Of a DNA stretch of 64,000 nt, positions 4,610-41,903 are shown piece after piece. The notes beneath the pieces are model-generated. The model was not told the DNA's origin. It saw nothing but the letters and a program-made list of their open reading frames with translations, and did not search any database. The DNA lies in the NCBI GenBank assembly GCA_902610175.1, contig CACLUR010000001.1, positions 124,001-188,000 of the forward strand, written 5' to 3'. The position numbers and the translations under genes were made by a program. The stretch comes from an uncultured Alphaproteobacteria bacterium (lineage in GTDB: Bacteria; Pseudomonadota; Alphaproteobacteria; HIMB59). How positions within the stretch are numbered: position 1 is the stretch's first letter; every line of letters begins with the position of its first letter.

Positions 4610-4700
4610 TAAAATAATTCTCCAATATTACTTTTTAGTCTCAAAGTAACCTTTGGATCTTAAAAAAATAGTATAAGGATTAGTGTCGGTTAAGTGAGAG

Positions 4701-6604: not shown

Positions 6605-6613
6605 TCTAAACTT

Positions 6614-7412: not shown

Positions 7413-7507
7413 AGTTATCCTTTCTATAAATTATTATAAAATTTATTTAAAAATAATTCATTCTAAAATTGGACTATTATTATTCTTCTATATAGGAGGA
7501 AGTGATT

Positions 7508-7762: not shown

Positions 7763-7843
7763 TAATACCTAAATTGATCAACCAATATTTTTACGACAAC
7801 TTTTAAAATTGGTGATAAAAATTCTTGTTAGAAAATCAATCAA

Positions 7844-8578: not shown

Positions 8579-8706
8579 TATTGAATATTATATTCAACTT
8601 TTGGATAATTTTCTTTTAAAAAATTTATAAGAGAAACTTTTTCATTGATTTAGTTCAGTAAAATTTAATTAATTCTAGGTTAATTCTTGAAGGGGTAATT
8701 AGATAA

Positions 8707-9474: not shown

Positions 9475-9529
9475 TTAGCCTGTTTTTTTTATAATTTTAT
9501 CATATACCTAAAATTTAAGTAAAACACAA

Positions 9530-10177: not shown

Positions 10178-10253
10178 GGGGCCATAGCTCAGCTGGGAGA
10201 GCGCTACGCTGGCAGCGTAGAGGTCAGGGGTTCGATCCCCCTTGGCTCCACCA
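10178..10253 (+). tRNA. tRNA-Ala (anticodon GGC)
   Basis: A full 76-nt cloverleaf. The acceptor stem GGGGCCA pairs with TGGCTCC and has the G3:U70 wobble that marks alanine tRNA. The anticodon stem CTACG/CGTAG encloses the loop CTGGCAG, with anticodon GGC at 10211-10213. The T arm contains GGTTCGATCC, and CCA is encoded at 10251-10253. It is transcribed on the plus strand, 16 bp before a small membrane-protein gene. Confidence 0.97.
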
Positions 10254-25550: not shown

Positions 25551-27905
25551 TTAAGGTAAAGGCCCGTCCTTTAAGAAACCTTTAAGCGTATTTTCCATTA
25601 TTCTAGAGACATTATTATTGTAATTATTATGTGAGAGACTACCGCACCAAGCCAAAGACCCTGGTGCAAACATTGCTCCATTGTTAGGTGTTTTATAGTA
25701 AATCATATCAGCTCTGACCATTGGATTTTCATGACCACCACCATAGTAACCACGAACAGCAAAATGTATTTCCTCGTTAACTTGCAACATCATATTAGAG
25801 TGATCCTGCGAGCGAGCCAAATAATAAGCATTATGTGGGGTTCCAAATTCTAAGTCGTATCTGTCTAACTCCAAACCGGCAGCTCCTCCACCAACTAAAC
25901 CAAAATCACCAATCACCTCATCTGCTCCAATCCCCTCAAAGATCCATGAACATTCAGGTTTAAAACTATCTTCTTCTCTTTTGTAGTATGAGGACACGTC
26001 AAATCCATAAGATGTGAAAGTTAACCCACAAACTTTAGAAGGTATTCTTCCTCGAGCTCTCCACATACCTCCATATTTACCATCAAAAGCATTATTGTAT
26101 TCACCTGGGTTAGATGTCCATGCTCTTGTGCCTGCTTCACCTTTTCGAACTTCGGTAATATTAGGGTTGTCAGGATGATACTCACTAATCCAATAAAATC
26201 CATCTGATCCTAGATAAAAACATCTACCACCCTGCATTTGATATGACTCTAGAGCATCCATATATTTCTCAGATGAATACTCAGGGTGACTTCCAGTCAT
26301 CACAACTTTATAACGATTTAATAAATTTATACCTTCATGTTCCAAATCCTCGTCTGTCAGAACATCAAAATCAAAACCTTTTTCTTCTAGCCAATCAGTA
26401 AGATGTAAGTCGGCATTGAGTTGCCATAATGAAGGAGAAAGCCAATGTCTGTATTTGGGTCTCATATTAAGGATTGGTCTTAGTCTTGATGATATTGATA
26501 CACCATGTCCGTCTGAGTGAAGTGAATAAGTTGATAGCCCGTATTCTCTATGTTCATTTAAATATAAATCTGCTGGCTCAAGCACAGGCACTTTACCTGC
26601 AAGCAATTGTGCTACCACAGAGTTGGTTCCAAGATTATCATTGGAGTAAGCCATGTAACTATTAGTAGGCAATAAGAATAAAGTTTTTGCAGTTGCTGTC
26701 CCTTTGGGAGGTTTAACACAAAATGGAATATAGTCCTCATTTTCTGATTCCTCTCGTCCGTCTACTCTTAGTCTTGCAGCGTAGACACCACTTTTTAATC
26801 CCTCAGGTACTTTTAAAGTAAAGTCTACATCCCATCTTGCATCGTCTATATCATCGTCATGAAAATGAATTGCACCGTATTCCTCAGGTTTATGATGGAA
26901 AACCATTTCATCCGCTGTCCAGTTATGTCCTGTCATACCTCTGTTTGGCATATTAATAATAAATCCGTGGTGATTATTTGGAGAAGTATCAACAATCTTT
27001 GTTGAGGCAATGTTTTTGCCAATATTCGCATGAAAATCCCAGGCACCTACGACTGTTGACCTGACAGTGGTATTACACTCATCATAGCTTGATGCAAGTG
27101 TTTCAATTTCAGCCTTCGATAGCGCAATATTAGATAATCTAGGTCTGTCTATCTTTCCATTAAATGTCTTTGTTTGCTCAGGTAATTCAATAGGGTGAGG
27201 TACCTCTTTAAAATGTCCGCCAGAAATATGTCTGCCTGATCTATTGTTGAGTGTTGTGGCAGCAATTAGCAATGGAGCGTCATTAGCAGCAGGTAAAACT
27301 GAGCTAGTGGTCTCAATAATAGCTGAGGTTTCTTCAATTGGATTCAAAATAGCCATACCCAAGCCACCATTTGTAGATGTAACTCTAGGTTCTTGATGAA
27401 GGGTAAGCCTTCTCGATTGAGCATCAAATTTTGCAATAACCAGATACCAGACCTTTCTTAAAAGCTTTTTTTCTGAGGAGACAGTAACAACCTGAGAACC
27501 ATCACCAATTTCTACAGATAAACAGCCTTCATCATTAACGAAAAGGCCATAGCCTTTTTTTTCTTCTTCATTAAATTTGGTGAAAATTCCTTGTCTGCCT
27601 TTGTCAGGGGTGGTTGGGAAAATGTAAGCCTGCATAGTGAAGCTTTCTAAATTTAAATTATCGTGTTGGGGCATGATGATATATGATCCACCATGTATTC
27701 TCTGGTTTTTCCCTTGATAGGTACCATTGCAACTAGCATCTATTTCGGCCTCTTTATATCCTGGGCCTTCAGGATTTGTATCACCGTGTATTAAGCGGAC
27801 TAATTGAACTTCATAACTGTCATTGTATTCAGCATTAATATAAAATTTAACCTCTTCGCCAGGGTGAGCTGAGTACTTATCACTATAACCTGTTATTTTT
27901 AACAT
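25551..27905 (-). CDS. dmfA2: N,N-dimethylformamidase-type amidohydrolase, large (beta) subunit
   Basis: A 784-residue soluble protein with the architecture of dimethylformamidase large subunits: a beta-rich N-terminal half with a concanavalin/LamG-like domain (about 80-275) and a C-terminal catalytic half. The 2-Tyr-1-Glu mononuclear iron site of the Paracoccus enzyme (Tyr399, Tyr440, Glu521 from memory) is preserved in residue and spacing: Tyr420 in NSYMAYSND, Tyr460 in GLSTYSLHSDGHG and Glu542 in TGSHPEY. Other family segments include GGRCFYLGSDGFYWI and RIPSKVCGLTFTSYGFD. It hydrolyses an amide, classically dimethylformamide to formate and dimethylamine; the natural substrate here is open. 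TAATG overlap with the alpha-subunit gene. Confidence 0.88.
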   Translation of the reverse strand: MLKITGYSDKYSAHPGEEVKFYINAEYNDSYEVQLVRLIHGDTNPEGPGYKEAEIDASCNGTYQGKNQRIHGGSYIIMPQHDNLNLESFTMQAYIFPTTPDKGRQGIFTKFNEEEKKGYGLFVNDEGCLSVEIGDGSQVVTVSSEKKLLRKVWYLVIAKFDAQSRRLTLHQEPRVTSTNGGLGMAILNPIEETSAIIETTSSVLPAANDAPLLIAATTLNNRSGRHISGGHFKEVPHPIELPEQTKTFNGKIDRPRLSNIALSKAEIETLASSYDECNTTVRSTVVGAWDFHANIGKNIASTKIVDTSPNNHHGFIINMPNRGMTGHNWTADEMVFHHKPEEYGAIHFHDDDIDDARWDVDFTLKVPEGLKSGVYAARLRVDGREESENEDYIPFCVKPPKGTATAKTLFLLPTNSYMAYSNDNLGTNSVVAQLLAGKVPVLEPADLYLNEHREYGLSTYSLHSDGHGVSISSRLRPILNMRPKYRHWLSPSLWQLNADLHLTDWLEEKGFDFDVLTDEDLEHEGINLLNRYKVVMTGSHPEYSSEKYMDALESYQMQGGRCFYLGSDGFYWISEYHPDNPNITEVRKGEAGTRAWTSNPGEYNNAFDGKYGGMWRARGRIPSKVCGLTFTSYGFDVSSYYKREEDSFKPECSWIFEGIGADEVIGDFGLVGGGAAGLELDRYDLEFGTPHNAYYLARSQDHSNMMLQVNEEIHFAVRGYYGGGHENPMVRADMIYYKTPNNGAMFAPGSLAWCGSLSHNNYNNNVSRIMENTLKGFLKDGPLP

Positions 27906-28333
27906 TACTCTTCCCCGCTATACTCCTCAAGTAGTCTGTTAATTCTTTTTAAAAATATTGCATGTTCACATGCTTCCTCAGATGAATAAGAGTCTTCAGT
28001 AATTTCAACTGGCTCACCTCTAACTCCTGTTGTTATTCCAACTCTATAATCTTCATGCCTTCTTAAACAAACAGTTACAAAACCATTTTCTTTACTTCCT
28101 CTTCTTAACTTATCTAATAATGTTTGGAGATCTTGACTGTGCTGAATAACGCCGTGGTCTCGAGTAGCAGCCCTTCCAATTGGAGTTGCTCTATGCTCTT
28201 CAATTAGAGATTTTAATTTTTGAGGATCTCTCAACATTTTTAATATGTATTTTTTGGTAATAAAATCATCAGTGTGTTTATGCCCTTTATTTAATTGGAC
28301 GTTTGACGGGTGCTTATAGCTGTAATCAGACAT
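27905..28333 (-). CDS. dmfA1: N,N-dimethylformamidase-type amidohydrolase, small (alpha) subunit
   Basis: A 142-residue helical protein that matches the small subunit of dimethylformamidase in size and in its C-terminal signature: here DSYSSEEACEHAIFLKRINR, in the family D-S-[FY]-[AS]-[ST]-E-E-E-A-x-x-A-[VI]-F-L-K-R-I. A middle helix-turn with HRATPIGRAATRDHGVIQHS and the strand YRVGITTGVRGEPVEIT fit the same family. It starts the operon segment after a 105-bp gap and overlaps the large-subunit start by TAATG. The known enzyme is an alpha2-beta2 or higher assembly. Confidence 0.8.
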   Translation of the reverse strand: MSDYSYKHPSNVQLNKGHKHTDDFITKKYILKMLRDPQKLKSLIEEHRATPIGRAATRDHGVIQHSQDLQTLLDKLRRGSKENGFVTVCLRRHEDYRVGITTGVRGEPVEITEDSYSSEEACEHAIFLKRINRLLEEYSGEE

Positions 28334-28438: not shown

Positions 28439-30493
28439 TCATAATGCATAAACGGAAAGTATTACAGTTGCCACAGCCATACCTATTAATATAAGTGGCC
28501 AACCATACCCTCCTCCCATTCTGTCAATATAGTTTCCTTGCTCCTCAACATCGTCAGGTGCCAAATATTCATCACCATTTAGTATGGGTTTTTTTGGCAA
28601 AGTCGATAAGTCCATCTTATTGGCTAAAAACCAAATTAGAAATATACCCGCTACCCACCAAATTATTTGGTAAGCCCATAGTGAAGGGACTCCCATCACC
28701 CAATTATCATAACTTTGATCCGCACTACCAAATATTAAGTTTCCGAAAATTAAACCCGGGCCGATAGAGAAGAATGCCCATATTAAAAAGAAGACATAAG
28801 CAAGAGATTTTATTTTTTTTCTTGATGGGTGAATACCCATATGTTCATTTAAAAAATTATGAAATGACGCTCGATGTTCTTTATCTGTATCATTACTTGC
28901 AAATATAGAGGATAAAAAACATACAATCACATTAAAGAATAAACCCCATAACCCAGAGTAGATTGTTAGTGGCCATCGCCCCCAAGGAAGAGAATTTCCT
29001 GTTAGCTTATGACCAAAAGTTTCAGCTAAAGTTACAAAACCTAATCCGGTGATGAGTCCAAGAATTGCCCCACCTCTTGTGATCCATTTAAACCAAAGCA
29101 TTCCAAGTAAAACAGGAAACAATTGGAAACCAAAAGCGATTGCTAATCCACCAAGTAGTATTAGAGAAGTTTCAAAAAAAGTTGCAAGATACAGTGCCGC
29201 TAGGCTTAATAACAACATCGCTAACCTAGCAACTAATAACTCCCTTTTCCATGTAGGGTTACTATCGATATATGGTCTATAGAGATCTCTTGCCACCATG
29301 CTGCCTGAAGTCATTAAAAAAGCAGATAATGTAGATTGAAGAGCAGCAATTATGGATATTGCCAAAAATCCAACAATGATTGGTGAGAGATTACTGAAGC
29401 TTTCAACAAACACATAAATTAAAGATGATATATTTTGTAGACTTAGCTCAGGGAATATTTGGTTAATGGCAAAACCATTTGAATTAACAATACTATTAGC
29501 TCCAAGAAGATGTGCTCCTACACCTAATAAAGGGGCGAATATAAATAAAAATATTCCAACAACAGCACCTGAACCCCAAACTTGATAAAAATAAAATGAC
29601 CTCGGTGATTTTACTGAATAGCTCCACATCGAAAATGTAGGAGAAAGCACAATACCCATATAAGAGAGAGTAAAGGATAAAATCATAACTGCTGTCCAAG
29701 GTCCTCCTAATGGGTTGTTTTTTCCAATACCTGCAACCCACTGAATTACACCAGGAACGTTGAAATATCCTGATATATCACCGCCTCCGTAACCTCCAGT
29801 AGTTCCCCAAGCTCCGAAAGATATAAAGCTATTCGCCATAGATAGGTCTTCAAAAAAACTTAAACCTCCTAAGTAATTAAATACACCAACACCAAGTGCT
29901 AAGAAAAAAACAAAAAATAACCATGATTGAACAACGCTTACACTCACCATGGGTTTAAATCCACCAGATACTATATAAAATAAGACAACAGCAGTTAGTG
30001 CCCACATTGCAGAGTCTCTAGTTATTTCACCTCCACTAATAAACTCTACAACATTACCTGTTGATCCAATAATTATACCAAGAAATGGAACAGCAAAAAA
30101 TAATCCGATTATTAGTACTACAATTCTAAGAGTATTACTTTGATAATATTTATAATACATCTCTCCTGGAGTGATAAAATTAAATTTTCTACTTAGCATC
30201 CACTGCCTTTTAAAAAATAGTATACTTCCGAGAGGAATTGTTATTACAATTGCAGCAGTAGCTAGAAAAGAGTATCCATCTGCATAAATTAATGATGGAA
30301 AAGAAATGATAGTTATGCCTGCAAATGTAGTTACTGTTGCAGAGAAAAAGAATACCCAAGGAGATACACTTCTATCTGCTAAATAGTAAGCCTCAGGGGT
30401 TTTATTTTTTCTAAGAGTTCTAGCTCCCCAAAAAAGACAAAAGCTTATATATAGGACAAGAAAGAAAAAAAACCAATAAAGATTAGCGACCAT
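28439..30493 (-). CDS. Sodium/solute symporter (SSS) family transporter
   Basis: Inner-membrane secondary transporter, 684 residues, longer than the usual 500-550 because of a C-terminal region with two or more extra membrane segments (about 570-590, 615-635, 660-684). At least 14 hydrophobic segments are visible. The family core is recognisable: FFSATVTTFAGITIISFPSL, GGFKPMVSVSVVQSWLFF and the AALQSTLSAFLMTSGSMVARDLY stretch that carries Na2-site serines/threonines. It ends 105 bp before the amidohydrolase genes, so it may import their substrate. Start at ATG 30493, 14 bp after the alpha/beta hydrolase. Confidence 0.88.
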   Translation of the reverse strand: MVANLYWFFFFLVLYISFCLFWGARTLRKNKTPEAYYLADRSVSPWVFFFSATVTTFAGITIISFPSLIYADGYSFLATAAIVITIPLGSILFFKRQWMLSRKFNFITPGEMYYKYYQSNTLRIVVLIIGLFFAVPFLGIIIGSTGNVVEFISGGEITRDSAMWALTAVVLFYIVSGGFKPMVSVSVVQSWLFFVFFLALGVGVFNYLGGLSFFEDLSMANSFISFGAWGTTGGYGGGDISGYFNVPGVIQWVAGIGKNNPLGGPWTAVMILSFTLSYMGIVLSPTFSMWSYSVKSPRSFYFYQVWGSGAVVGIFLFIFAPLLGVGAHLLGANSIVNSNGFAINQIFPELSLQNISSLIYVFVESFSNLSPIIVGFLAISIIAALQSTLSAFLMTSGSMVARDLYRPYIDSNPTWKRELLVARLAMLLLSLAALYLATFFETSLILLGGLAIAFGFQLFPVLLGMLWFKWITRGGAILGLITGLGFVTLAETFGHKLTGNSLPWGRWPLTIYSGLWGLFFNVIVCFLSSIFASNDTDKEHRASFHNFLNEHMGIHPSRKKIKSLAYVFFLIWAFFSIGPGLIFGNLIFGSADQSYDNWVMGVPSLWAYQIIWWVAGIFLIWFLANKMDLSTLPKKPILNGDEYLAPDDVEEQGNYIDRMGGGYGWPLILIGMAVATVILSVYAL

Positions 30494-30507: not shown

Positions 30508-31371
30508 TTAAGAGTTGTAATCAGTCTTTTCCTTAATAATTCTGAGTGCCTCTAATAAATATACTCTAAAGACTTCATGGTTTTCACTCATCGGGAAATG
30601 ACCAATATCTCTCATTTCAATATAAACTCCTCCTTTTATTTGTCTGGCAGTATCTTCTGTTGCTTCGGGAGGGGTTAGGTAGTCATAAGTACCAGTTAGC
30701 ATGATAACAGGGCACTTGTGACCATCGATATTTTGAAGCTCATCTCTTAAATCATGATCAACTGAATAAAAATGAAGGTCTCCTTTAAAAGCCTCTGATC
30801 CTTGAGTGTAATAATGCCAAGTTAACCATCTATCCATATCTGGAGATTGTGGGGCCATTAAATCCCAAACACCACTACCACACACTTGAGCTGCATTGGC
30901 ATGAGGATGCCTCCACCAATCAATATAAAAGCCAGGGGAATAATGCGCAGCCTCGACAGGGATCACAGCTTTAAATTTATTAGGATACTTCAGAGCTAAT
31001 TGAAGAGCCACGTTTCCTCCAAAAGAAGAACCCATAAATATAGGGTTTTCAAGGTCTAAGGCCTTACAAAGTTCTACAATAAAATTACAGTAATGCTCTG
31101 CTGTTAATTTGTACTCCTCTTTCCACCATTCTGTATTATGAGGTGGATCTGATTTACCATGTCTTGGAAGGTCGTAAGCGATAACTTGATAATTTTGAGT
31201 AATTTCTTCATCTTCCAGTAATCCTCTCCACTGATGATTGTGGCATCCAGCAGTATGCTGACATACTAATGGAGTGCCTTTTCCATTTGAAAGATAAAAG
31301 ACTTTATACTGTTGACCATCTACCTCGATGGTAACGTATCTACCTATTGGGTCATGATGTTTTACTGCCAT
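30508..31371 (-). CDS. Alpha/beta-fold hydrolase
   Basis: A 287-residue serine hydrolase. The nucleophile elbow is GSSFG with Ser116; the oxyanion region is CQHTAGCHNHQWRGL; the acid is probably the Asp of TGTYDYLTPP; the base is the His of RDIGHFPMSE. The order and spacing fit the family that includes esterases, C-C hydrolases and dienelactone-type enzymes. It lies between the SCP2-like gene and the SSS symporter (25 and 14 bp gaps). Substrate unknown; amide, ester or lactone cleavage would suit the operon. Confidence 0.85.
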   Translation of the reverse strand: MAVKHHDPIGRYVTIEVDGQQYKVFYLSNGKGTPLVCQHTAGCHNHQWRGLLEDEEITQNYQVIAYDLPRHGKSDPPHNTEWWKEEYKLTAEHYCNFIVELCKALDLENPIFMGSSFGGNVALQLALKYPNKFKAVIPVEAAHYSPGFYIDWWRHPHANAAQVCGSGVWDLMAPQSPDMDRWLTWHYYTQGSEAFKGDLHFYSVDHDLRDELQNIDGHKCPVIMLTGTYDYLTPPEATEDTARQIKGGVYIEMRDIGHFPMSENHEVFRVYLLEALRIIKEKTDYNS

Positions 31372-31396: not shown

Positions 31397-31786
31397 TCAT
31401 ACTGGGACTCCTGATTGTCTTAGCAATTCAAATTGAACAGTAAAGTTTCTAAGATTTTGCATTAAGACTAAATGATTGCCCTCGATTTTAAGGTCTTCTC
31501 TAAATGAGGCTGCATAGATACCATGAAACATAGGTTTTGGAACAGGCTTTGCAAACTCTCTCCATGTTTGCTCTGATGCCCTTAATGCAAAGTCATATGG
31601 ATCTAAACCTCCAGGGTTGGTATTAATATTTTTTACCTTTCCATCATGCATCTCGATAATTACTTTCACACTACCCATGTCGAAAAGAAATGAACAAGTA
31701 TAATATTTAGCCATCGCTTTTATGGTCTCATCTTTTTCAGTAAGCTCTTTATATTTTTTTGCCCAGGATTTTACATCTATACTCAT
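31397..31786 (-). CDS. SCP2-like (sterol-carrier-fold) small protein
   Basis: A 129-residue soluble protein. The sequence runs strand-rich YTCSFLFDMGSVKVIIEMHDGKV, then DFALRASEQTWREFAKPVP, then a glycine-turn helix and KIEGNHLVLMQNLRNFTVQF. This is the pattern of SCP2 domains (strand core, W-x-x-[FL]-x-x-P, then G-[DN]-x-x-x-[LA] and a C-terminal hydrophobic helix), which bind lipids or hydrophobic acyl groups. The match is by pattern only. It is 9 bp after the flotillin gene and 25 bp before the hydrolase gene. Confidence 0.5.
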   Translation of the reverse strand: MSIDVKSWAKKYKELTEKDETIKAMAKYYTCSFLFDMGSVKVIIEMHDGKVKNINTNPGGLDPYDFALRASEQTWREFAKPVPKPMFHGIYAASFREDLKIEGNHLVLMQNLRNFTVQFELLRQSGVPV

Positions 31787-31795: not shown

Positions 31796-33784
31796 CTATT
31801 TCTTTTTCCTGGGTGTCTTTGTGGCTTGTTCATCAAATCTCATATGCTTGTCCTTCTTAGGATCATCGTAGTCACCTAAAATATTCCTGATATTACTTGC
31901 CTCACCGGGCGACATACCAATTTCTTTTAAAAGACTATCTAAGAACGGTTGTTGTGCTCTATATCGAAGAGCAGAATTCACAACATTATCTGCTAAAGAT
32001 CCTTTTTTGGAATATCCACCTGAGGACGCAGAGGGGTTATCAGCGTTGCCGCTTCCTTCGGCTCCTCCTCCTTGACTAAATCCAGGTAATCCATTTACAT
32101 CGACAACTTTAATTGAGTCAATGTTTTGCATTGGTCTAACCCATTCTCTAATAATACCCTCAATTTTTTCAGCGAGTTTTTGTCTAAGTGCACTTCTTCT
32201 ACTTGCGTCACTTCTAGCATTTTCCGCTTCATTTAGGGCTTTTTTGCCAGCTGCTTCAATTTCATATCTAATTTTCGCAGCCATCGATGCTAACTTTTCT
32301 CTCTCAGCATTTTTACTAGCGTCTATTACTCCAAGAGCTTTTGTCTTCTCAGCTTGTTCAACATCTCTAATGGTGTTGACTTTTTCCTCAGCTTCTACAG
32401 CCTTAGCGCGAGCATTTTCTTCTTCCATTTTAGTTTTTAAGACTGACTTAGATTTTTCTAGGACTTCCATTTGTTTTTGCTTTTCTTCAATTTCTATTCT
32501 TTTTGCCTTTTCAATATCTAAGACTCTTGTCTCTTGCTCAGCAGCAATTTTGAACGCATCAACATTTTTCTGTTGAGCAGTTTTTGCATTTTTAATTTGC
32601 TCCTCAGCCATAATATAAGCCTCTTCAGACTCATATCTTTTTCTAGCCTCTTCTTTTGCTGTTTGAGCTTTTTCCTCAGCAAGTTTAATATCAACTGATC
32701 TTTGTTTTTCTAGACGACTGAATTCAACATCTCTTTCCAATTCAAGAATAGTTTTTTCTGTCTCAATATCTTTCTGTTTAATCTCGATAGAAGTTTGTTG
32801 TTTAAACTCATTTTGTTCTTTTCTTCTTTTCTCAATTTCTTGGATAAGTTTAGTTTCTTGTAAACTTTTTTCCATCTCAACAAAGTCTTTCTTGCTAATC
32901 TTAGCAATCTCAATATCTTTTTCTGAGGAGATTTCAGCCAGCTCAGACTCTTTGTCTTTCTCAGCTTTTGTTTTTACTGTCTCAGTATTTTCAATAGCTC
33001 TTTGTTGTTCGATTTCACGTTTTTGTTGATACTTTGAAAATTCTTCCTCTTTTTCAATTTCAAGAGTTTGCTTGATAGATTGGAGGTTTTTATTTCGAAT
33101 ACTTACCTCTGTATCTTTCTCAATATCATTTCTTTTCTTTTTACGTGACTGAGTAAATTCTGTTATTTGAGTTAAACCCTCAGCATCAAATGTATTTGAA
33201 GGGTCGAATACACCCACGGGAGCTTGGTTAAGAGATGTCAAAGACACGGTCTCTAACTCCAAACCAGTGTGCTTAATTGCTTCTTCAACATGAGATGCAA
33301 CATTTTTAATGTACTCAGATCTATTCTCTTGAATTTCATCAAGGCTCATTTTTGCGGCAACAACACCTAATCCATCAACAAAACGACCTTGAACAAGTTC
33401 TTTTAAATGATCAGGCTCTAGTGTTCTATTTCCCAATGTTTGCGCGGCTATTGAGACAGCTTCAGTTGTAGGCGCTACTCTAACGTAGAATTCAGCGGTT
33501 ACTTCAGCCCTCATTCTATTTTTTGTGATAAAAGATTTACTCCCGTTTCGTTGAACCTCTATACAAAGAGTTTTCATACCCACTGAGGTAATGTTATGAA
33601 TAATAGGCAAAACGAAGGCACCTCCGCTGATCACAACTTGTTCACCTCCCATACCAGTTCTAACAAACGCTATTTCCTTTGAGGAACGCCTGTACAGCCA
33701 ATGTAGCAAGTAAACTATAATTGCTATTGCTAACGCTATTAAGATTATTATTGCAATAATATCTGCACCACTAGTAATGTTCAT
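31796..33784 (-). CDS. Flotillin-family (SPFH/Band 7) membrane scaffold protein
   Basis: A 662-residue protein anchored by one N-terminal membrane helix (about 9-29), followed by the SPFH domain (about 35-215; FVRTGMGGEQVVISGGAFVL, MRAEVTAEFYVRVAP) and a very long Glu/Lys/Ala-rich coiled coil (about 220-560) containing repeated E-K-x-x-E patterns. The C-terminus has a Gly/Ser-rich tail after MSPGEASNIRNILG-like sequence. Flotillins organise membrane microdomains. The usual partner NfeD is not in the window. It lies 27 bp downstream of the rhodopsin gene, suggesting co-expression. Confidence 0.9.
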   Translation of the reverse strand: MNITSGADIIAIIILIALAIAIIVYLLHWLYRRSSKEIAFVRTGMGGEQVVISGGAFVLPIIHNITSVGMKTLCIEVQRNGSKSFITKNRMRAEVTAEFYVRVAPTTEAVSIAAQTLGNRTLEPDHLKELVQGRFVDGLGVVAAKMSLDEIQENRSEYIKNVASHVEEAIKHTGLELETVSLTSLNQAPVGVFDPSNTFDAEGLTQITEFTQSRKKKRNDIEKDTEVSIRNKNLQSIKQTLEIEKEEEFSKYQQKREIEQQRAIENTETVKTKAEKDKESELAEISSEKDIEIAKISKKDFVEMEKSLQETKLIQEIEKRRKEQNEFKQQTSIEIKQKDIETEKTILELERDVEFSRLEKQRSVDIKLAEEKAQTAKEEARKRYESEEAYIMAEEQIKNAKTAQQKNVDAFKIAAEQETRVLDIEKAKRIEIEEKQKQMEVLEKSKSVLKTKMEEENARAKAVEAEEKVNTIRDVEQAEKTKALGVIDASKNAEREKLASMAAKIRYEIEAAGKKALNEAENARSDASRRSALRQKLAEKIEGIIREWVRPMQNIDSIKVVDVNGLPGFSQGGGAEGSGNADNPSASSGGYSKKGSLADNVVNSALRYRAQQPFLDSLLKEIGMSPGEASNIRNILGDYDDPKKDKHMRFDEQATKTPRKKK

Positions 33785-33811: not shown

Positions 33812-34513
33812 TTATTGTCCATTAACTCTCATGTCTTGTATTGCTGCTTTGTAAATTATTAAACCAAAAACTATTTTATTTAAAAAGTCTGCTAAATTAT
33901 AAATCACATTAACACTATTGGGGTCAATGCCCCCGCCCAAATGCTCTATAAAATATCCCATTGGATATATAGCCCATCCAATTGTAATAATAAGTCTGTT
34001 CGAGAAGAAAACCATTTGTACATTTTCGTTTCCGCATCTAGCATTTGCTCTTCCGGCCTCTCCAACATATAGCTCACCGAGGATGTACAACCATCCAGCT
34101 AACCAAACGATGAAACCTAATGTCTTACTCATATAACCCGCTGCACCTAAGAAACCTGCTACAACAAAAACTAAAGTTCCAACCAATAATCTCCAGAACA
34201 TGCCTTGTTTAACTTTGACAACTGACATAAGCATTGCATAAAAAATAAGCACAAGCATTGGAAAGTTAAGAAACCAATCTATATATCTTAATAAAGTCGG
34301 GGCGGTGCCGCTGACTACCCAGAGATTTTTTACGAAAAAATAATGTATAGAGGACATCAAGCATACAACAGCTATCATTGTCATCGGTGTATGAAATCTT
34401 GTGCTTACTTTGCTACGCTCAAAAAAGAAAAACAATGTGGCGCCAATCATGCCAACAGAAATTAACCAGAAAGACCCCCCTACAATATCGTAAGGGAGAA
34501 GCATTTTATTCAT
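33812..34513 (-). CDS. Microbial (proteorhodopsin-like) rhodopsin with non-canonical D-N-I motif
   Basis: A seven-helix retinal protein of 233 residues. Schiff-base Lys213 lies in NLADFLNKIVFGL, with Asp209 as the second counter-ion. Helix C reads RYIDWFLNFPMLVLIFY: Asp79 equals the primary acceptor, but the threonine (PR 101) is Asn83 and the proton donor (PR Glu108) is Ile90. His57 (PR His75) is kept. Leu87 at the spectral-tuning site suggests green absorption. GAGG lies 11 bases before ATG 34513. No retinal- or carotenoid-synthesis gene is in the window. Loss of the donor carboxylate makes standard fast proton pumping doubtful; slow pumping, sensing or another ion are possible. Confidence 0.93.
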   Translation of the reverse strand: MNKMLLPYDIVGGSFWLISVGMIGATLFFFFERSKVSTRFHTPMTMIAVVCLMSSIHYFFVKNLWVVSGTAPTLLRYIDWFLNFPMLVLIFYAMLMSVVKVKQGMFWRLLVGTLVFVVAGFLGAAGYMSKTLGFIVWLAGWLYILGELYVGEAGRANARCGNENVQMVFFSNRLIITIGWAIYPMGYFIEHLGGGIDPNSVNVIYNLADFLNKIVFGLIIYKAAIQDMRVNGQ

Positions 34514-34636: not shown

Positions 34637-36028
34637 TTATATTTGCTCCCTAATATGGGGTGCTCTGGAGTAAAGAGCAACAAGAGGTAAAATAAGAAGA
34701 CCAAATATAAATTGCTGACCCTCAAAACTTAAGCCTAGACCTGCCAAAAATGTACTAATTACTTGCAGTGCAAGAACACCGATTACTGTAAAGCCGTATC
34801 CTCCATATCCACCTAATAAGGAAGTTCCTCCTACAGCCACAGCTGCCACTGTTAAAAATAAATATTGATCACCTACACCAATGAACCCTCCACCACTCCA
34901 ACCCAGTAACATTGCCCCGGTTGCTGCAGAGGTAAATCCACTAATGACATAAACTCCGACCCAATATGCTCTCTCAGAAATTGACAATCTGTCAGCAGAT
35001 AACCTTTTTCCACCAACAGCATATAAATTCCTTCCCCACTTAGTGTGTCTAAGTCCAACAATTAATAAAATTGAAATCAATATCCAAATTAAAATAACTG
35101 GAGGTATTGGAAGACCAAAAAATTTTCCATTTAATGAGGCCAAATTTTTTAACCAATCTGGAACAACACCAAACACAGTTCCACCTGTAACAGTAGGAAG
35201 TGATACCAATATCTGTACTCCACCTACTACCATGAAGCCAACTCCAAGCGTGACTATTAGTGATTGACCTTGAAGGTTAAAACTTATCAACCCATTAAAA
35301 AGCCCGACGATCGTGCCAAATGCAAGAATAACTATAAACGCAAGCCAAGGAGGAACTCCAAGTGAAATAAGTGACATTAATCCTAAATTAGTCGCTCCGA
35401 TTAAAAATGGTATTGATAAATCGAGGCCGCCTAACATCACAACTAATGTCTGTCCAATTGTTGCAATTCCTAAGAAAGAAGCAAAAACTAACATAGATTT
35501 AATATTCTGTAATGATAAGAAGCCATCAATAGAAACTGATCCTATTATAAAAAGACCAACCAGTACGGCGACTCCTATAATTACGCTTTTGTTAATGTTT
35601 AAAAATTTGTAAGCAAGAAATGCTAAGATTAAAAAACCTAATAATATGATTGCTGATACGACTGTTCTACCTGAGAAGAACCCGGGTACCAAAAAACATA
35701 GTAATATAAAAAGGCCTAAAAGAAGTAAAAATCCCGTAACAGCTATCCAGTTCTTTGCAATGAGGTCCCAAAAAAGGCTTCTTTTACTTGTAGTTTCAGT
35801 AGTTTCAGGAGGTTGAGATCCATCTTCCTTTACTAAAGATCGATAAGACCATCTAACTAAGAAAAAATGCCAGCCCCAAAGAATAATGGCAACAACAGCA
35901 ACAGAGTAAAATGCAACCTGTATCCAATCAGTTCTATCTACATAACCAAGAACTGCGGTACCTATCCCAGCAGCAACAGCAAAAAGAATTCCAAGTCCTT
36001 TTAAAAAATTATGAGTTCTTTTCTCCAT
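34637..36028 (-). CDS. Sugar-type ABC transporter permease (RbsC/BPD_transp_2 family)
   Basis: Inner-membrane permease of 463 residues. The core from about 165 to 460 is RbsC-like: SMLVFASFLGIATIGQTLVV followed by MLGGLDLSIP, then AYWVGVYVISGFTSAATGAM and GGTSLLGGYGGYGFTVIGVL. About 150 extra N-terminal residues add several membrane segments and a cytosolic stretch, beyond the usual 320-residue size. It lies 3 bp downstream of a second, larger permease and probably forms a heterodimeric channel with it. Confidence 0.88.
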   Translation of the reverse strand: MEKRTHNFLKGLGILFAVAAGIGTAVLGYVDRTDWIQVAFYSVAVVAIILWGWHFFLVRWSYRSLVKEDGSQPPETTETTSKRSLFWDLIAKNWIAVTGFLLLLGLFILLCFLVPGFFSGRTVVSAIILLGFLILAFLAYKFLNINKSVIIGVAVLVGLFIIGSVSIDGFLSLQNIKSMLVFASFLGIATIGQTLVVMLGGLDLSIPFLIGATNLGLMSLISLGVPPWLAFIVILAFGTIVGLFNGLISFNLQGQSLIVTLGVGFMVVGGVQILVSLPTVTGGTVFGVVPDWLKNLASLNGKFFGLPIPPVILIWILISILLIVGLRHTKWGRNLYAVGGKRLSADRLSISERAYWVGVYVISGFTSAATGAMLLGWSGGGFIGVGDQYLFLTVAAVAVGGTSLLGGYGGYGFTVIGVLALQVISTFLAGLGLSFEGQQFIFGLLILPLVALYSRAPHIREQI

Positions 36029-36031
36029 TTA

Positions 36032-38305
36032 CTAAACTTTTCTATCTTCTGATAGACCTCCCCATTTTTCAAGTCCTTCTTGAGATTTTAATTTTATTTT
36101 ATAAACACCAAACGCTTGCCATATCAGAGGCGAAATAGCTATTCCAATTGCTGTGATTAAAATCATTTTCCAATAAGGATAACCAATTGCGAAGAACATC
36201 GCAGACCATGTTAATGCAGCTATACTTAAAATAGCAATGTAAGGTCTGAATCTAGCAAATGATATTTTTGCTCCCATCGTTAAATATGTAAAAAATTGAA
36301 ATACAAATATTGCAAATATAATTAGAGCTGCTTCTTTAAGCCAAGTAACATCACTTGTGATAAATTCTCCTCGTATAGGTCTTGTATAGTTGATTGATGA
36401 AGTATCGCCGACAATTAATTCTGTAATAATTGGAGAGTAAAACTTACTTCCATCATCAGTAATAATTGTCCCAGATGGTGAGGCTAAAAAGTATACAGCG
36501 AGTATTGCTAATACACCGAGGAAAATAATGAAAACATTATTCAAATTGATATTCGAAAAAAGAGTTGGTGCTGTGAGTAAAAAAAGTAAAAATAAAATTA
36601 GTATTACGGCGTATCCATCTATGCCGAAGAAACTCTGTCTATTTGACTCAATTCCGTAATAAGATATTGCAGCAAATACAATAAATGAAATTGCTATTGC
36701 AAATAATACCAATGTTTGTGTTTTGATTTCTTTTCTAAATCTTGGCATAGCAATTATTACTATCGCAGATGTAAAGAAAACTATTCCTCCTAAAGTTGCG
36801 ACAGCGTAAGCGAGGCCAACCAAAGCACTCGAGGAAGATGAAAAATCAGGCAATCCTGCACCAACTCTTAGATATTCAGATGTAAAATACTGAGGAGCAT
36901 AATTTAAAATATATTGTAAGTTGGTACCCAAATCAGCGTTAACGAAATAAGCCTCTCTCGTGCCACTCCAAACACAACCGAAGAAAATAACAATTGCTGC
37001 AATAATAAAAGACACTGTTGGGCCATCTCTATGTTTAACAAGCAAATAAACAAGATAAATCAAGGCTGCTATTCCGATAGCAATAAACATCCACACTGTA
37101 GAATTTCCACCCTCTGCGCATGCCTTACCTGTGATTAAACAATCACTCCCGGACTCGAGAGCTTTTTCAAAAATTTCAGCATCTTTAGATTTACCTCCAA
37201 AACCTCCCACAGTCCCTCTGGTTACTTGATCAAATTTCATATGAATTTGAACAGCAGCAGCACTTAATGTTCCAATAATAAAAAATACAAAAACTGATAA
37301 ATTTTTGAATGCTTTTTGAATATAAGGAAGCGCAATAAGTATTAAAAGAGAAGCCACCAATACCGCACCATATGATAAGTCTGTTACGAAACTTTGAAAT
37401 CTTTCAAACCTAAAAGTTGATAGAATAAAATTTATCAAATAAATGTTAACTGAACCTAGAATAGCTCCAAACGCACCGCCTCTTCCACCAATTAAACTTG
37501 ACCCACCTAATACAAGTGCTGTAACTGCCATCAATGTATAAGTAGTACCTTGAGTTGGGTCTCCGGAACCAATCAAACCTGTAAAAGCAATAGCTGCGAG
37601 TGCAGCGTAAACTCCACCGATAATATGAGCACCAATTCTTACAATGTAAATTCTCACTCCACTTGTATAAGCAGACTTTTCATCTGAACCCATTAATTTT
37701 AAATGTTGCCAGTAAGCAGTATGAGTTAGTGCATACCAAATGAGTGTCGAGAAAATTAAAAGTATCAGTGTGGGTTGTACTACCTCAGTTCCAGCACTCC
37801 AAGATAACATCCAATCAGGTGCTCTTCCTCCTGGTCTTGGTAAAATAACTAAATTGATACCAGAGAAAGCAAGAAACATACTTAAGGCAACTATTATTGG
37901 TTGAACTCTGATAAAAATTACGATTAAGGCATAAAGAAATTGGTAAATTACTCCTATTGCAAGAGCACATATGAAATACGCAACTGGCGATTGAATGTAA
38001 CCTGCAGCATAAAGTTGTATTGTCGTTACATTAATAAAACCAATAAGTGGTCCTATTGATAAATCGACTGTCACTCTGCCGGCTAAAGCCAACGCAGTAA
38101 GAGCATAAGTAGCAAGAATAAGAGGTGTTGAAACCATAATTGCAGTTCCAATACCCGAGCCTGAAATTATTTGTGGTCCTCTAATCATTGCAAAAATCAT
38201 TAGGGCAAAAAATATAAATATTGGAACGATTAAGTATTTTGTTGACTGGGGATCAGAACCTGGAATTTGAGAGGGTTTTATTGCTGCTACAAGTTGATTA
38301 ACCAT
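36032..38305 (-). CDS. Very large ABC transporter permease (RbsC-type core plus extra membrane domain)
   Basis: A 757-residue membrane protein. Residues about 35-330 are a complete RbsC/BPD_transp_2 permease (MVSTPLILATYALTALALAG, GRVTVDLSIGP, MAVTALVLGGSSLIGGRGGA). Then come a periplasmic loop with two cysteines (near 390-400; GSDCLITGKACAEGG) and about eight further hydrophobic segments to residue 735, with no recognised second ATPase-contact loop. That is more than twice the usual length. It starts 5 bp after the biotin carboxylase gene and 3 bp before the other permease. Confidence 0.85.
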   Translation of the reverse strand: MVNQLVAAIKPSQIPGSDPQSTKYLIVPIFIFFALMIFAMIRGPQIISGSGIGTAIMVSTPLILATYALTALALAGRVTVDLSIGPLIGFINVTTIQLYAAGYIQSPVAYFICALAIGVIYQFLYALIVIFIRVQPIIVALSMFLAFSGINLVILPRPGGRAPDWMLSWSAGTEVVQPTLILLIFSTLIWYALTHTAYWQHLKLMGSDEKSAYTSGVRIYIVRIGAHIIGGVYAALAAIAFTGLIGSGDPTQGTTYTLMAVTALVLGGSSLIGGRGGAFGAILGSVNIYLINFILSTFRFERFQSFVTDLSYGAVLVASLLILIALPYIQKAFKNLSVFVFFIIGTLSAAAVQIHMKFDQVTRGTVGGFGGKSKDAEIFEKALESGSDCLITGKACAEGGNSTVWMFIAIGIAALIYLVYLLVKHRDGPTVSFIIAAIVIFFGCVWSGTREAYFVNADLGTNLQYILNYAPQYFTSEYLRVGAGLPDFSSSSSALVGLAYAVATLGGIVFFTSAIVIIAMPRFRKEIKTQTLVLFAIAISFIVFAAISYYGIESNRQSFFGIDGYAVILILFLLFLLTAPTLFSNINLNNVFIIFLGVLAILAVYFLASPSGTIITDDGSKFYSPIITELIVGDTSSINYTRPIRGEFITSDVTWLKEAALIIFAIFVFQFFTYLTMGAKISFARFRPYIAILSIAALTWSAMFFAIGYPYWKMILITAIGIAISPLIWQAFGVYKIKLKSQEGLEKWGGLSEDRKV

Positions 38306-38310: not shown

Positions 38311-39813
38311 TTAGTCAAAATAAACGACTTTGATACCCCCTCTGTCAGACTGCGATCTTCCATGACCTACTTTAAGTTTGTCTGTTTCAACAATTTTAAT
38401 TCTCTTTGAGTCCAAATCAATATTTTTAGTAAAGCCATTTTTAAAAGATATATTACTAATAAGAGTGTTTAAATTATTTTCGATATATTTAGTGTTGTGT
38501 TTACCATCTATGAAGTTTTTGTCTTTAAGAAGACAAATTAAAAAAGGGATGTTTGTCTTAATGCCCTCAATCTGAGTGCCTTCTAAAAATTTTATTAATT
38601 TGGATATAGCATCGTCTCGAATTAAGTCGTGAGATATAATTTTTCCTATCATCGGATCATAATAGAAACTTACTTCATCTCTTTCATCGTATCCCCAATC
38701 TAATCTTATGCCATTTGGTATTTTAGGAAACTTTAATTTAGTTATTTTTCCTGGAGATGGTAAGAAATTTTGAGATGGATCCTCTGCATAGACTCTGCAT
38801 TCAATTGAATGTCCGTAAGTTTTAATTTTATTTTGATTTAAAAATTTATTTTTTCTATTAAAAGCAAAATTTATTTGCATAGAAATTAAATCATTATTTG
38901 TCACTAACTCTGTAACCGGATGTTCAACTTGAATTCTTGTATTCATCTCAAGAAAATAATATTTCATTTCTTGAACATCATATATGAACTCTACAGTTCC
39001 GGCTCCTTCGTAATTTACATCAGAAGATAATTTGACAGCGGCTTGTGCCATATTATTTATTAATTCTCTATCTACCTCAGGTGCCGGAGACTCCTCAATT
39101 ATCTTTTGATATCTTCTTTGCATAGAGCAATCTCTTTCGAACAAATGCACAGATCCTTTTGCACCAAATCCAAAAACTTGTATTTCAATATGTCGGGCGT
39201 TGGTTATAAATTTCTCAATAAAAATATCTCCGTTACCAAAAGATTTTGCAGCAAGATTACTAGTTTTTTCAATTGCATTAGCTAGGTCGTTAAAGTTTTG
39301 AACGACGCTCATGCCTATCCCCCCACCACCAGCACTTGATTTTACAAGTAAAGGGTAACCTATTGCTTCACATTTTGTCTTAAGTTGTTCATCACTTAAT
39401 TTATGAACATTATTTATACCCGGACATATAGGAATATTGGAATTTAAGGCCAATTCACGAGCAATATCCTTATTTCCCATTGATTTTATTGATTTTGGTT
39501 TTGGGCCAATCCATGTGATACCTTTGTCTATAACCTCTTGAGCAAAAGTATCGTTTTCTGATAAAAAACCAAAACCAGGATGAATAGCATCCACATTTGA
39601 TTTTGTAGCTATTTCTAAAATCTTATTGTAAGAAAGATAACTTTCCTGAGCTTTACTAGGTCCTATATGATAAGACTCGTCAGATAATCTTACATGCTTT
39701 GAATTCTTATCTGCATCTGAATAAACAGCTACAGATTTGTGACCTAATATTTTACAACTTTTTATAATTCTATTTGCTATTTCACCGCGATTAGCAATTA
39801 AAATTTTTTTCAT
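38311..39813 (-). CDS. Biotin carboxylase subunit (AccC/urea-carboxylase type)
   Basis: ATP-grasp enzyme of 500 residues that carboxylates biotin on a carrier protein. The N-terminal MKKILIANRGEIANRIIKSC, the ATP loop VKSSAGGGGIGMSVV, HIEIQVFGFGAKGSVHLFER, the DCSMQRRYQKIIEESPAP segment and EMNTRIQVEHPVTE are all canonical. No acetyl-CoA carboxyltransferase genes are nearby; instead pxpA overlaps it by 4 bp upstream, and pxpB, pxpC and a biotin carrier lie across the divergent promoter. So it likely serves a biotin-dependent lactam or urea-like carboxylase, not fatty-acid synthesis. Confidence 0.9.
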   Translation of the reverse strand: MKKILIANRGEIANRIIKSCKILGHKSVAVYSDADKNSKHVRLSDESYHIGPSKAQESYLSYNKILEIATKSNVDAIHPGFGFLSENDTFAQEVIDKGITWIGPKPKSIKSMGNKDIARELALNSNIPICPGINNVHKLSDEQLKTKCEAIGYPLLVKSSAGGGGIGMSVVQNFNDLANAIEKTSNLAAKSFGNGDIFIEKFITNARHIEIQVFGFGAKGSVHLFERDCSMQRRYQKIIEESPAPEVDRELINNMAQAAVKLSSDVNYEGAGTVEFIYDVQEMKYYFLEMNTRIQVEHPVTELVTNNDLISMQINFAFNRKNKFLNQNKIKTYGHSIECRVYAEDPSQNFLPSPGKITKLKFPKIPNGIRLDWGYDERDEVSFYYDPMIGKIISHDLIRDDAISKLIKFLEGTQIEGIKTNIPFLICLLKDKNFIDGKHNTKYIENNLNTLISNISFKNGFTKNIDLDSKRIKIVETDKLKVGHGRSQSDRGGIKVVYFD

Positions 39814-40595
39814 TTCTTATCAACGATATAAGGCATTTTGGTATGATTGCCGTTTGAAGTTTTTAGTGGAATTTTTTTATCAGAGGAAATTTTTTCTCTC
39901 AGAGCCTTTAAGATTTCTACAGCATTAGGAGTGTCAGAGTGGACACAAATTGTTTCACATCCTACAACTACATCGTTTCCTTGAACAGTTTTAACTTTAT
40001 TTTCATTCATTGCTCTTAAACAACGCTCCACAGCTCTATCAGTTGGATAATATTTATTTCGACCCTTGGCTATAACCAAATAACCTGTTTCATCATATTC
40101 CAAGTCAGAGTAAAATTCTCCGTAAAATTTTATTCCTCTTTCTTTGTATACTTTTTCGTGAAAAGTATTAACCATTCCAAAAATACCAACATTAAAAATT
40201 TCAGCTGCGTCAGCAATTCCATGAGCCACATCTTCCTCTTTCGCGGAGACACCATATAAAGATCCATGAGGTTTGATATGGTTTAATGGCATTCCATACT
40301 CATCAAGAAAGGCTTTGATGGCACCAGTTTGATACATCACAAGATTTTTGATTTCATCACGTTTCATTTTCATCGGCCTTCTTCCAAATCCTACTAAGTC
40401 AGGATAGGCAGGGTGCGATCCAACTTTCACATCATATTTTTTTGCAAGCTCGACAGTTTTCCTCATTGTGTTTGGGTCTGAGGCGTGAAACCCACAGGCT
40501 ACATTAGCAGCATCTATATAAGGCATTATTTCTTCGTCATCTGCGAAGGAGTAAATACCAAAACCCTCACCCATATCGCAATTTAAATCGACCAT
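39810..40595 (-). CDS. pxpA: LamB/YcsF-family 5-oxoprolinase subunit A
   Basis: A 261-residue protein with the family signature at the start (MVDLNCDMGEGFGIYSFADD), then IDAANVACGFHASDP, VGSHPAYPDLVGFGRRPM and HIKPHGSLYG. PxpA works with PxpB and PxpC in ATP-dependent opening of 5-oxo-L-proline to glutamate in characterised bacteria. The metal-like residues Asp/Asn/Asp and His of the GFHASDP loop are intact. It is the first gene of the leftward arm and overlaps the biotin carboxylase start by 4 bp. Confidence 0.92.
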   Translation of the reverse strand: MVDLNCDMGEGFGIYSFADDEEIMPYIDAANVACGFHASDPNTMRKTVELAKKYDVKVGSHPAYPDLVGFGRRPMKMKRDEIKNLVMYQTGAIKAFLDEYGMPLNHIKPHGSLYGVSAKEEDVAHGIADAAEIFNVGIFGMVNTFHEKVYKERGIKFYGEFYSDLEYDETGYLVIAKGRNKYYPTDRAVERCLRAMNENKVKTVQGNDVVVGCETICVHSDTPNAVEILKALREKISSDKKIPLKTSNGNHTKMPYIVDKK

Positions 40596-40742
40596 GAATA
40601 ATAAATTCCTCTCATTTATAATTTACAGAAAATCAGGCTTTTATGTGAAAATCTTTTCCACATGTTGGAACAATTTTGCTTATATTTTTCAGAATATAGG
40701 TATTATTATAGATACTTATATATAAGTAAGGAGGATAAAACT
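40596..40742. promoter_or_regulatory. Divergent promoter region with a 16-bp palindrome
   Basis: A 147-bp gap between pxpA (leftward) and the binding-protein gene (rightward). TACTTATATATAAGTA at 40713-40728 is a perfect palindrome and runs straight into the ribosome site AAGGAGG (40728-40734) of the binding protein. It could be an operator or a weak mRNA hairpin that gates the ribosome site. No regulator gene is adjacent. Confidence 0.5.
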
Positions 40743-41903
40743 ATGACATTGCTTAAAAAGTTCATAGCTATTTTAGCTGTTAGTTTTGTCGGTGTCGCAG
40801 GTAACTTAAATGCTGACATTTTAGACGAAATTCCAGCTGATATTAGAGACTTCGTTTATAATCCTGACTTTATGGATCCTAACCAACCGCTTGGTGAAAG
40901 TGTATACAGAAATTGGAAAAGTGATAGACCACTTCCTTGGACTATCGGTTATGCAAGTTCTTACGCAGGTAATCTATGGAGAAAAGGTGTGATGGAGAGA
41001 TTGTATGGTGACTATTTACCAAAAATGAAAGCAGCAGGTATTCTTAACGATATCGTTGTTACACAATCTAATCTAAAAGACGCGGTTCAAATTCAACAAA
41101 TGAGACAGTTAACTGATCAAGGAGTTGATGGATTAATAGTCTGTTGCTCAAATCCTGTTGCATTAAATCCAACTATTGAGTATGCGTACGGAAAAGGTGT
41201 TCCTACTGCATCAATGACAGGATACTTAACTTCAGAATATGCTATCAGTACATCTGTTAACTACAAATTGACCGGATATTATATTGCACAATGGTTAGCA
41301 GAAACTATTGGTGGTGAAGGTAATGTTGTTATCATGGAAGGAATTCCTGGAACATCAGCATCTGACTCACAGCACCAAGGTATGCTAGATGGATTTGCAG
41401 AATATCCAGACATTACTGTTGTTGCTGAAATTGCACACATGTGGACACCACAAATTGCTCAAGCTGAACTTCAAAAATGGTTATCAGCTAACACAACTCA
41501 AGTTGACGGATTTGCTGTTCAGTCTTCAGGAGAGTCCGGAGCACTTAACGCTCTAGAATCATCTGGAAGACCAATGGTGCCTATGGCTTTGGGTGGAGAA
41601 ATTGGTGCATTCTGCTATTGGAGAAATAATCCAGACTTTATCGACAGAGCGGTCTATGCATGGCCTCCTGGAGATGATGCAGAGTTTGCGATGAATGTTC
41701 TTTTAAGAACTATGTATGGTCAGGGCCTTAAAATCCAGTCTATTTTAGTTCCTCCATATGAAGAAGATGTTGAGACTATTCAGTCTTTTGTTCCTGAAGA
41801 TTGTGACAGAAACTCAAGTGAGTTTAGAACTGTTGGAATTGAAAACTGGGCAAGTGATGAATATCTAAATAATTTCTTCGATCGTGGAGAAGCATTACTT
41901 TAA
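40743..41903 (+). CDS. ABC transporter periplasmic substrate-binding protein (Peripla_BP_4 type)
   Basis: 386 residues from ATG 40743; AAGGAGG with 8-base spacing and the signal peptide MTLLKKFIAILAVSFVGVAG (cleavage near NLNA) decide the start. The mature protein has the ribose-binding-protein pattern: IGYASSYAGNLWRKGVMERL, QMRQLTDQGVDGLIVCCSNP, GNVVIMEGIPGTSASDSQHQ and a final lobe with several Trp. Three cysteines could form a disulfide. The matching permeases are on the opposite strand across the shared promoter. Ligand unknown; the linked enzymes point to a lactam, ureido or related compound rather than a plain sugar. Confidence 0.9.
   Translation: MTLLKKFIAILAVSFVGVAGNLNADILDEIPADIRDFVYNPDFMDPNQPLGESVYRNWKSDRPLPWTIGYASSYAGNLWRKGVMERLYGDYLPKMKAAGILNDIVVTQSNLKDAVQIQQMRQLTDQGVDGLIVCCSNPVALNPTIEYAYGKGVPTASMTGYLTSEYAISTSVNYKLTGYYIAQWLAETIGGEGNVVIMEGIPGTSASDSQHQGMLDGFAEYPDITVVAEIAHMWTPQIAQAELQKWLSANTTQVDGFAVQSSGESGALNALESSGRPMVPMALGGEIGAFCYWRNNPDFIDRAVYAWPPGDDAEFAMNVLLRTMYGQGLKIQSILVPPYEEDVETIQSFVPEDCDRNSSEFRTVGIENWASDEYLNNFFDRGEALL

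Follow-up and report, generated by a model that had tools for sequence, protein, structure and literature searches.

A HIMB59-type flotillin-associated rhodopsin, probably retinal-free, in a gene cluster with a sugar-type ABC importer

Flotillin-associated rhodopsins (FArhodopsins) have been described in Pelagibacterales (motif DTT), Pseudothioglobus (DTL), and HIMB59 (DNI) by Haro-Moreno et al. 2023 (PMC10308929). The traits given there are a flotillin gene as neighbor, an N terminus about 23 residues shorter than that of the pump paralog, and a DTE pump at a separate genomic locus, which was always found in the FArhodopsin single-cell genomes; several rhodopsins per genome have also been reported for the HIMB59 group (PMC10308909). 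According to PMC10308929, AlphaFold-based analysis points to FArhodopsins as possibly lacking retinal, the D-N-I branch shows its highest recruitment in the upper photic zone, and freshwater members, whose genomes could not be examined in that study, are diverse and mostly lack the Schiff-base Lys. In Escherichia coli, relatives with a DTT motif (other than D-N-I, and possibly misfolded) were unpigmented, and functional DTE rhodopsins altered to DTT-T lost function (PMC5864233). Structures of one member are deposited as 9r21 (titled PsFAR wild type) and 9r23 (titled double mutant H84V/E120G); a literature search did not find a paper describing 9r21 through 9r23 or any experiment with a D-N-I rhodopsin.

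The DNA analyzed here (the window, 64,000 nucleotides from an uncultured HIMB59 alphaproteobacterium) encodes a rhodopsin of 233 residues on the minus strand (33812..34513), with an ATG start codon; the plus strand over 33812-34513 contains stops in frame 1. Pfam Bac_rhodopsin matches the protein with an E value of 1.1e-31 (110.5 bits, cut-off 24.6). Helix C reads RYIDWFLNFPMLVLIFY. Alignment with bacteriorhodopsin (BR) and proteorhodopsins places D79/N83/I90 at BR D85/T89/D96 (D97/T101/E108 of green proteorhodopsin, GPR), as read in an initial annotation of this DNA, and puts I90, not a carboxylate, at the donor site (GPR 108) once gaps are accounted for. L87, D209, and K213 align with BR L93, D212, and K216, and the His57 site is nearly invariant across the aligned rhodopsins; the conservation claimed earlier for these four residues is borne out. 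Because many congeneric genomes carry the protein at 97 to 100% identity, a sequencing accident is ruled out. The motif is D-N-I in 16 of 17 distinct proteins of the HIMB59 type (D-N-V in the other), DTT in eight of nine of the Pelagibacter type (ETT in one), and DTV, DTI, and DTT, one apiece, in the three distinct proteins of a sister clade described below; all 23 pump rows read DTE. Across these distinct proteins the donor site thus varies, with a carboxylate in 0 of 29 of the FArhodopsin type. The window-type rhodopsin is under strong purifying selection: by a simple counting method dN/dS is 0.010 to 0.036 in eight of 10 pairs (several of these values are rough because dS exceeds 1), and dS is saturated in the other two.

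The protein is almost certainly a HIMB59-type FArhodopsin, an already described kind. In the phylogenetic placement, which the initial annotation had suggested as a check, 27 FArhodopsin rows including PsFAR form a single clade (100/98) and all 26 pump rows fall outside it. The nearest PDB sequences are 9r23 and 9r21 (E 1.6e-91 and 9.7e-91; next best 1.8e-58), which are also the top two Foldseek matches by fold, and an AlphaFold2 model of the window rhodopsin is a seven-helix bundle (mean pLDDT 86.7, pTM 0.84). Relative to the pump of the same genome, 23 leading alignment columns are empty; the helix G Lys is retained as K213, as in marine FArhodopsins. All 82 FArhodopsin-type loci (with many genes counted twice, once per genome collection) have a same-strand flotillin gene downstream; none of the 26 pump loci does, within flanks of at most about 1.5 kb. 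As no DTL protein turned up in the sequence sets searched, the Pseudothioglobus branch is represented by PsFAR alone. A pattern search of viral contigs, which detects close relatives only, returned none, and in a phylum-wide sample of 398 genomes (E <= 1e-66) the single match besides the genome itself, G176, is a DTE pump.

Nothing sets the window protein apart from the HIMB59-branch FArhodopsins of PMC10308929, which likewise read D-N-I, carry either Gln or Leu as the tuning residue, and have a flotillin downstream, a short N terminus, a second rhodopsin of the DTE pump kind, and the same surrounding transporter, carboxylase, dimethylformamidase, and hydrolase genes. D-N-I, which the initial annotation did not recall among characterized groups, is therefore a published motif. 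PsFAR (9r21) belongs to the same clade (57 to 58% identity in the Foldseek alignment), aligns in register through helices C and D, and has likewise lost the donor (D-T-M); it differs in having H84/E120 where the window protein has F84/G120, Q at the tuning site, and an S in helix C at a site that is P in the other rows. The Pelagibacter DTT-T rhodopsin (PMC5864233; 66 to 69% identity) shares F at site 84 and the downstream flotillin, SCP2-like, and hydrolase genes but differs in its D-T-T motif, in W at 116 and Q at 120, and in helix F, where W becomes F and P becomes H. Green proteorhodopsin and the DTE-Q pump of the same genome (39 to 49% identity) share the fold, Lys, Asp79, Asp209, and His57, whereas they keep the donor Glu, the helix D Glu (GPR E142), an open pocket, and a longer N terminus, and have no flotillin neighbor.

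The genes around the rhodopsin comprise an importer and several enzymes. The flotillin gene (31796..33784, minus; 662 residues, Band_7 and Flot domains) starts 27 nt past the rhodopsin stop, compared with 16 nt in Pelagibacterales (PMC10308929), and a strong ribosome-binding-like site, GGAGGTGATAA, precedes its ATG. It is followed on the same strand by genes for an SCP2-like protein of 129 residues (31397..31786; Pfam SCP2 E 0.043 and PoNi_C 0.018, both below cut-off, so that the name leans on the sterol-carrier-type gene annotated in the cluster in PMC10308929), an alpha/beta hydrolase of 287 residues (30508..31371), a sodium:solute symporter (SSF; 28439..30493), a 142-residue protein with no Pfam family that is kept in HIMB59 and Pelagibacter clusters (27905..28333), an N,N-dimethylformamidase-like protein with a LamG domain (25551..27905), and an AttM-family lactonase (23954..24907; NCBIfam 426.9 bits, cut-off 390). 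The hydrolase has no solved relative at E <= 1e-12, and its best NCBIfam match, 3-oxoadipate enol-lactonase, is far below cut-off. Upstream of the rhodopsin, also on the minus strand, lie two sugar-type ABC permeases (34637..36028, BPD_transp_2; and 36032..38305, 757 residues with BPD_transp_2 in 64-319 and a long C-terminal part), a biotin carboxylase-like protein (38311..39813), and a PxpA-type 5-oxoprolinase subunit (LamB/YcsF; 39810..40595). Divergent from these, on the plus strand, are the periplasmic binding protein of the importer (Peripla_BP_4; 40662..41903), its sugar-type ATPase (41916..43700), and two carboxyltransferase-type subunits (43706..45937; CT_C_D 43706-44968, CT_A_B 44969-45937).

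Several further features of the window were recorded. Promoter-like sites are fewer than in shuffled sequence (31 against a mean of 39.9), and terminator-like sites number nine against 5.5 in shuffles (sd 2.8). The GC fraction is 0.27 to 0.31 over window positions 1-10000, up to tRNA-Ala (10178-10253), compared with 0.33 to 0.38 over 10-30 kb. A MipZ/ParA-type ATPase gene lies at 48601-49239, about 14 kb upstream of the rhodopsin; its relatives border the Pelagibacter FArhodopsin cluster (L069 7140-7757, L120 6348-6980), and it is perhaps a cluster boundary gene.

In a class-wide sample of 385 genomes, five encode a rhodopsin with an identity of 54% or more: the genome itself, a congener, and three of one family with genomes of 4.0 to 4.5 Mb. 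FArhodopsin occurs in six of 11 genomes of that family (G262, G355, G432, G819, G820, and G821; loci L081-L083, L110-L112, L116-L118, and L158), each 95 to 97% complete. In the tree this group (three rows) is sister to the remaining FArhodopsins (100/99), with which it shares A at GPR E142 (BR126), G at BR150, and S at BR53, together with E at BR192 (N in PsFAR); flotillin is again downstream. None of the six genomes has a second rhodopsin at E <= 1e-10, and the BCD/blh profile, which matched the window's own genome, found nothing in seven family members, one of them without FArhodopsin. The sister-clade genomes carry phytoene/squalene synthases, and RPE65-type carotenoid oxygenases are present in all seven family genomes, FArhodopsin-less G143 included, so some source of retinal there is possible. 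The Lys is kept, and the pocket holds less side-chain bulk than that of the pumps (W to G at BR145); coupled with the flotillin link, this indicates that pocket filling probably came after that link. The clade departs from the "streamlined genomes" named in the title of PMC10308929 and from the pump that was present there in every FArhodopsin single-cell genome. It may belong to the freshwater FArhodopsins of that paper, most of which lack the Lys that the sister clade keeps. A pump-less, blh-less sister clade with an importer operon was not found in the literature searched, although the freshwater supplements of PMC10308929 may include it, nor was any work from 2023 on that joins flotillin, proteorhodopsin, ABC transporter, and retinal.

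The operon of the sister clade was read in four of its six genomes (three regions first, then a fourth). On one strand it runs binding protein, ABC ATPase, permease, permease, rhodopsin, flotillin, SCP2-like protein, hydrolase, and a lactonase relative. The first eight genes are 47 to 82% identical to their window counterparts, the longer permease over 328 to 352 of its 757 residues only. The ninth, a metallo-beta-lactamase-fold protein in the single copy scanned, is 32 to 33% identical to the AttM-type lactonase at 23954-24907; that copy (L116 13836-14693), directly after the hydrolase, falls in the same Pfam family as the window lactonase. Among 48 genome-contig loci, the order rhodopsin-flotillin-SCP2-like-hydrolase on one strand holds in 45 of the 45 long enough to read (L033, L040, and L067 are too short for gene order), and the Pelagibacter loci keep this four-gene core. 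Beside the Pelagibacter rhodopsin no ABC gene was found in flanks of 8 kb at most, shorter at some loci, so the importer does not directly adjoin it; it may sit further off, since PMC10308929 lists an inner membrane translocator in the 26-kb Pelagibacter cluster. Identity between groups is highest for the hydrolase (82 to 88% to the Pelagibacter and sister-clade copies), followed by the SCP2-like protein (75 to 79%), the rhodopsin (54 to 69%), and the flotillin (47 to 65%). An adjacent SCP2-like/hydrolase pair without rhodopsin or flotillin was found in four alphaproteobacterial stretches of 9 to 19 kb (L153, L154, L155, and L159; 25 to 55% and 44 to 63% identity); it thus seems that importer, rhodopsin, and flotillin were added to an old pair. 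The gene neighbors of the pair in other genomes point to no substrate.

At BR90, BR118, BR122, and BR141, positions of the retinal pocket, all 23 pump rows carry V, M, G, and G. In the window type these are F84, F116, G120, and W137; the sister HIMB59 type (L060-L063) has F, F, E, and G; the Pelagibacter type has F, W, Q, and G, with W182F and P186H in helix F; and PsFAR has H, M, E, and G. These residues (F84, F116, and W137 as against E120/G137) are named from our alignment; PMC10308929 also figures clashing residues. W137 and E120 alternate in the aligned proteins, which we interpret as what may be two ways of plugging one cavity. The tuning site covaries with the plug, Leu occurring with W137 and Gln with E120, so Leu87 tells little about color. 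The first site of the PsFAR double mutant (H84V) corresponds to F84.

Pocket volume was taken as the summed side-chain volume of 22 positions, which we take to represent the pocket of bacteriorhodopsin structures. It is 3612 Å3 in the window type compared with 3318 to 3456 Å3 in the 23 pump rows, 3526 to 3553 Å3 in the window's sister type, 3546 to 3597 Å3 in Pelagibacter, 3387 Å3 in PsFAR, 3295 Å3 in its mutant, and 3102 Å3 in the sister clade. With the variation among pumps as the yardstick, the window type has a z score of 8.1, which none of 2000 randomly drawn sets of 22 other columns attained, and the sister type and the Pelagibacter type have z scores of 5.3 and 6.0 (1 of 2000 sets each); the sister clade, with z −8.5 (one protein), has a larger pocket. 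A control lacking this standardization was weak: the change of the window type was equaled in 5% of 5000 random sets, that of the sister type in 17%, and that of the Pelagibacter type in 12%. Volume alone is not decisive, because PsFAR is itself unfilled and unremarkable by this measure (z 0.8). Conserved columns changed at a like rate in the pocket (6/19) and elsewhere (24/66); those enlarged by more than 30 Å3 number 2/19 in the pocket vs. 1/66 outside it, and those clearly smaller 0 vs. 5.

On these alignments the window rhodopsin probably binds no retinal in its native state. From the conserved residues the initial annotation had deduced retinal binding and probable absorption of green light; both are now doubtful: with F84, F116, and W137 filling pocket positions, FArhodopsins possibly retinal-less, and the DTT relatives unpigmented, a conserved Lys is no proof of retinal. 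Against a retinal-free reading, conservation of the Schiff-base Lys, Asp79, Asp209, and His57 would be odd if retinal were never bound, and binding is possible because the organism, by its genes, makes retinal. Retention of this Lys and of the two Asp residues calls for caution: they may have a structural role, or some ligand may still bind.

The second rhodopsin of the genome lies at C1:424 kb, about 236 kb beyond the window end; its sequence, RYVDWLITVPLQMIEFY, reads D-T-E with Gln at the tuning site and appears to be of pump type. It is followed by a phytoene-synthase-type gene and blh, and ORFs in between resemble crtI and crtY (named from reading their translations). Both blh (BCD) and phytoene/squalene synthase have one match each in the genome, outside the window, which for these two families agrees with the earlier remark that no retinal-synthesis genes are near.

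Within the genus, FArhodopsin occurs in 36 of 49 genomes including the present one: 29, again including it, carry FArhodopsin and pump, 12 the pump only, and one neither. In the other family of the order (31 genomes) no match exceeds 46% identity. The single-contig genome G029 has a pump (DTE-L, as HIMB59 carries; PMC5864233) and no FArhodopsin, no flotillin at E <= 1e-30, and no hydrolase at E <= 1e-60. FArhodopsin-less G001, G026, and G032 hold flotillin pieces at 100% identity (within the first five bases of a contig in G001 and G032), so the absence of FArhodopsin is partly an assembly artifact. Seven genus genomes have FArhodopsin with no pump, blh, or phytoene synthase detected. We dropped them as proof of a retinal-free role because the contig of G016 ends where the pump cluster would start, G014 shows 4% contamination, and completeness is 50 to 79% in the others. 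In G014, moreover, FArhodopsin genes with flotillin occur on two contigs (G014:C125 and G014:C23, the latter L120); of the two genes one is HIMB59-like (87%) and the other Pelagibacter-like (66%), a pair that reflects either contamination or two copies. G012 has a flotillin-like stretch (42%) containing a stop, and in L077, downstream of 8699, the flotillin ORF is split into two pieces, probably by sequencing error.

Taken as a whole, the best explanation, to which we give a probability of roughly 0.7, is that the protein is a HIMB59-type FArhodopsin acting as a retinal-free membrane component of a flotillin-organized uptake cluster. Folded as the predicted seven-helix bundle, it would hold no retinal and would neither pump nor sense light; together with the sugar-type ABC importer, the SCP2-like protein, and the alpha/beta hydrolase in a flotillin-organized cluster, it would help to organize or regulate substrate uptake and breakdown. 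That its role belongs with the uptake cluster and not with a proton pump is, on its own, a tentative proposal that we hold at a little under even odds. The hypothesis of PMC10308929, in which FArhodopsin and the bona fide pump of the same cell form mixed oligomers in flotillin domains and so tune the pump, seems unlikely to us. It draws on the co-occurrence of both rhodopsins in the 29 genomes, on the constant presence of the pump in that paper's single-cell genomes, and on the defects of the seven FArhodopsin-only genomes; yet the pump also occurs without FArhodopsin, as in G029, and the six sister-clade genomes have FArhodopsin and flotillin with no other rhodopsin. The original partner was therefore probably no pump, and since none was found in the sister clade we judge the importer link the likelier of the two.

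The remaining alternatives give the protein either a light-driven task or none. The initial annotation saw something other than an ordinary pump, possibly linked to its neighbors, and this much stands; flotillin, the defining neighbor, went unmentioned. Its idea of a slow photosensor or regulator that binds retinal is decidedly improbable in our view: the kept Lys213, Asp79, Asp209, His57, and helix F Trp/Tyr, the blh- and phytoene-synthase-type genes of the genome, and the upper-photic recruitment of the D-N-I branch speak for it, but the pocket positions are filled, the unpigmented DTT relatives count against it with the provisos given above, and the Pfam matches of the 37 distinct window proteins scanned, a subset of the window genes, include no transducer family. 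Donor-less pumps of the DTG/DTS kind exist, and the acceptor Asp79 is kept; a weak or alternative-ion light-driven pump nevertheless requires retinal, whose pocket appears filled, and the loss of function in DTE rhodopsins changed to DTT-T (PMC5864233) also makes this reading very remote. Decay to a functionless paralog, as loss of the donor and pocket might suggest, has practically no likelihood given the dN/dS values and the same gene order in distant genomes.

A bolder extension of the retinal-free uptake reading concerns origin, and we regard it as speculative and rather doubtful. A donor-less proteorhodopsin and flotillin would have joined the importer/SCP2-like/hydrolase operon in pump-less, blh-less, non-streamlined alphaproteobacteria, so that FArhodopsin would not have arisen as a dim-water light protein. 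The fold would have been kept as a blind subunit or gate, and the empty pocket plugged later in streamlined marine lineages, differently by branch (F84+F116+W137, F84+F116+E120, and F84+W116+Q120).

The D-N-I protein and its motif are already known; some of the comparative evidence on the origin of the family is new. For annotation, this means that retinal use by a rhodopsin should not be concluded from a conserved Schiff-base Lys, and F84, F116, and W137 are the residues whose exchange should reopen the pocket of the D-N-I branch. The pump-less, blh-less sister clade, the importer operon, and the alternative plugs point to testable partners, namely the importer, the SCP2-like protein, and the hydrolase, and so give leverage on the question that this family poses, what job a rhodopsin does without pigment, beyond "perhaps a pump helper."
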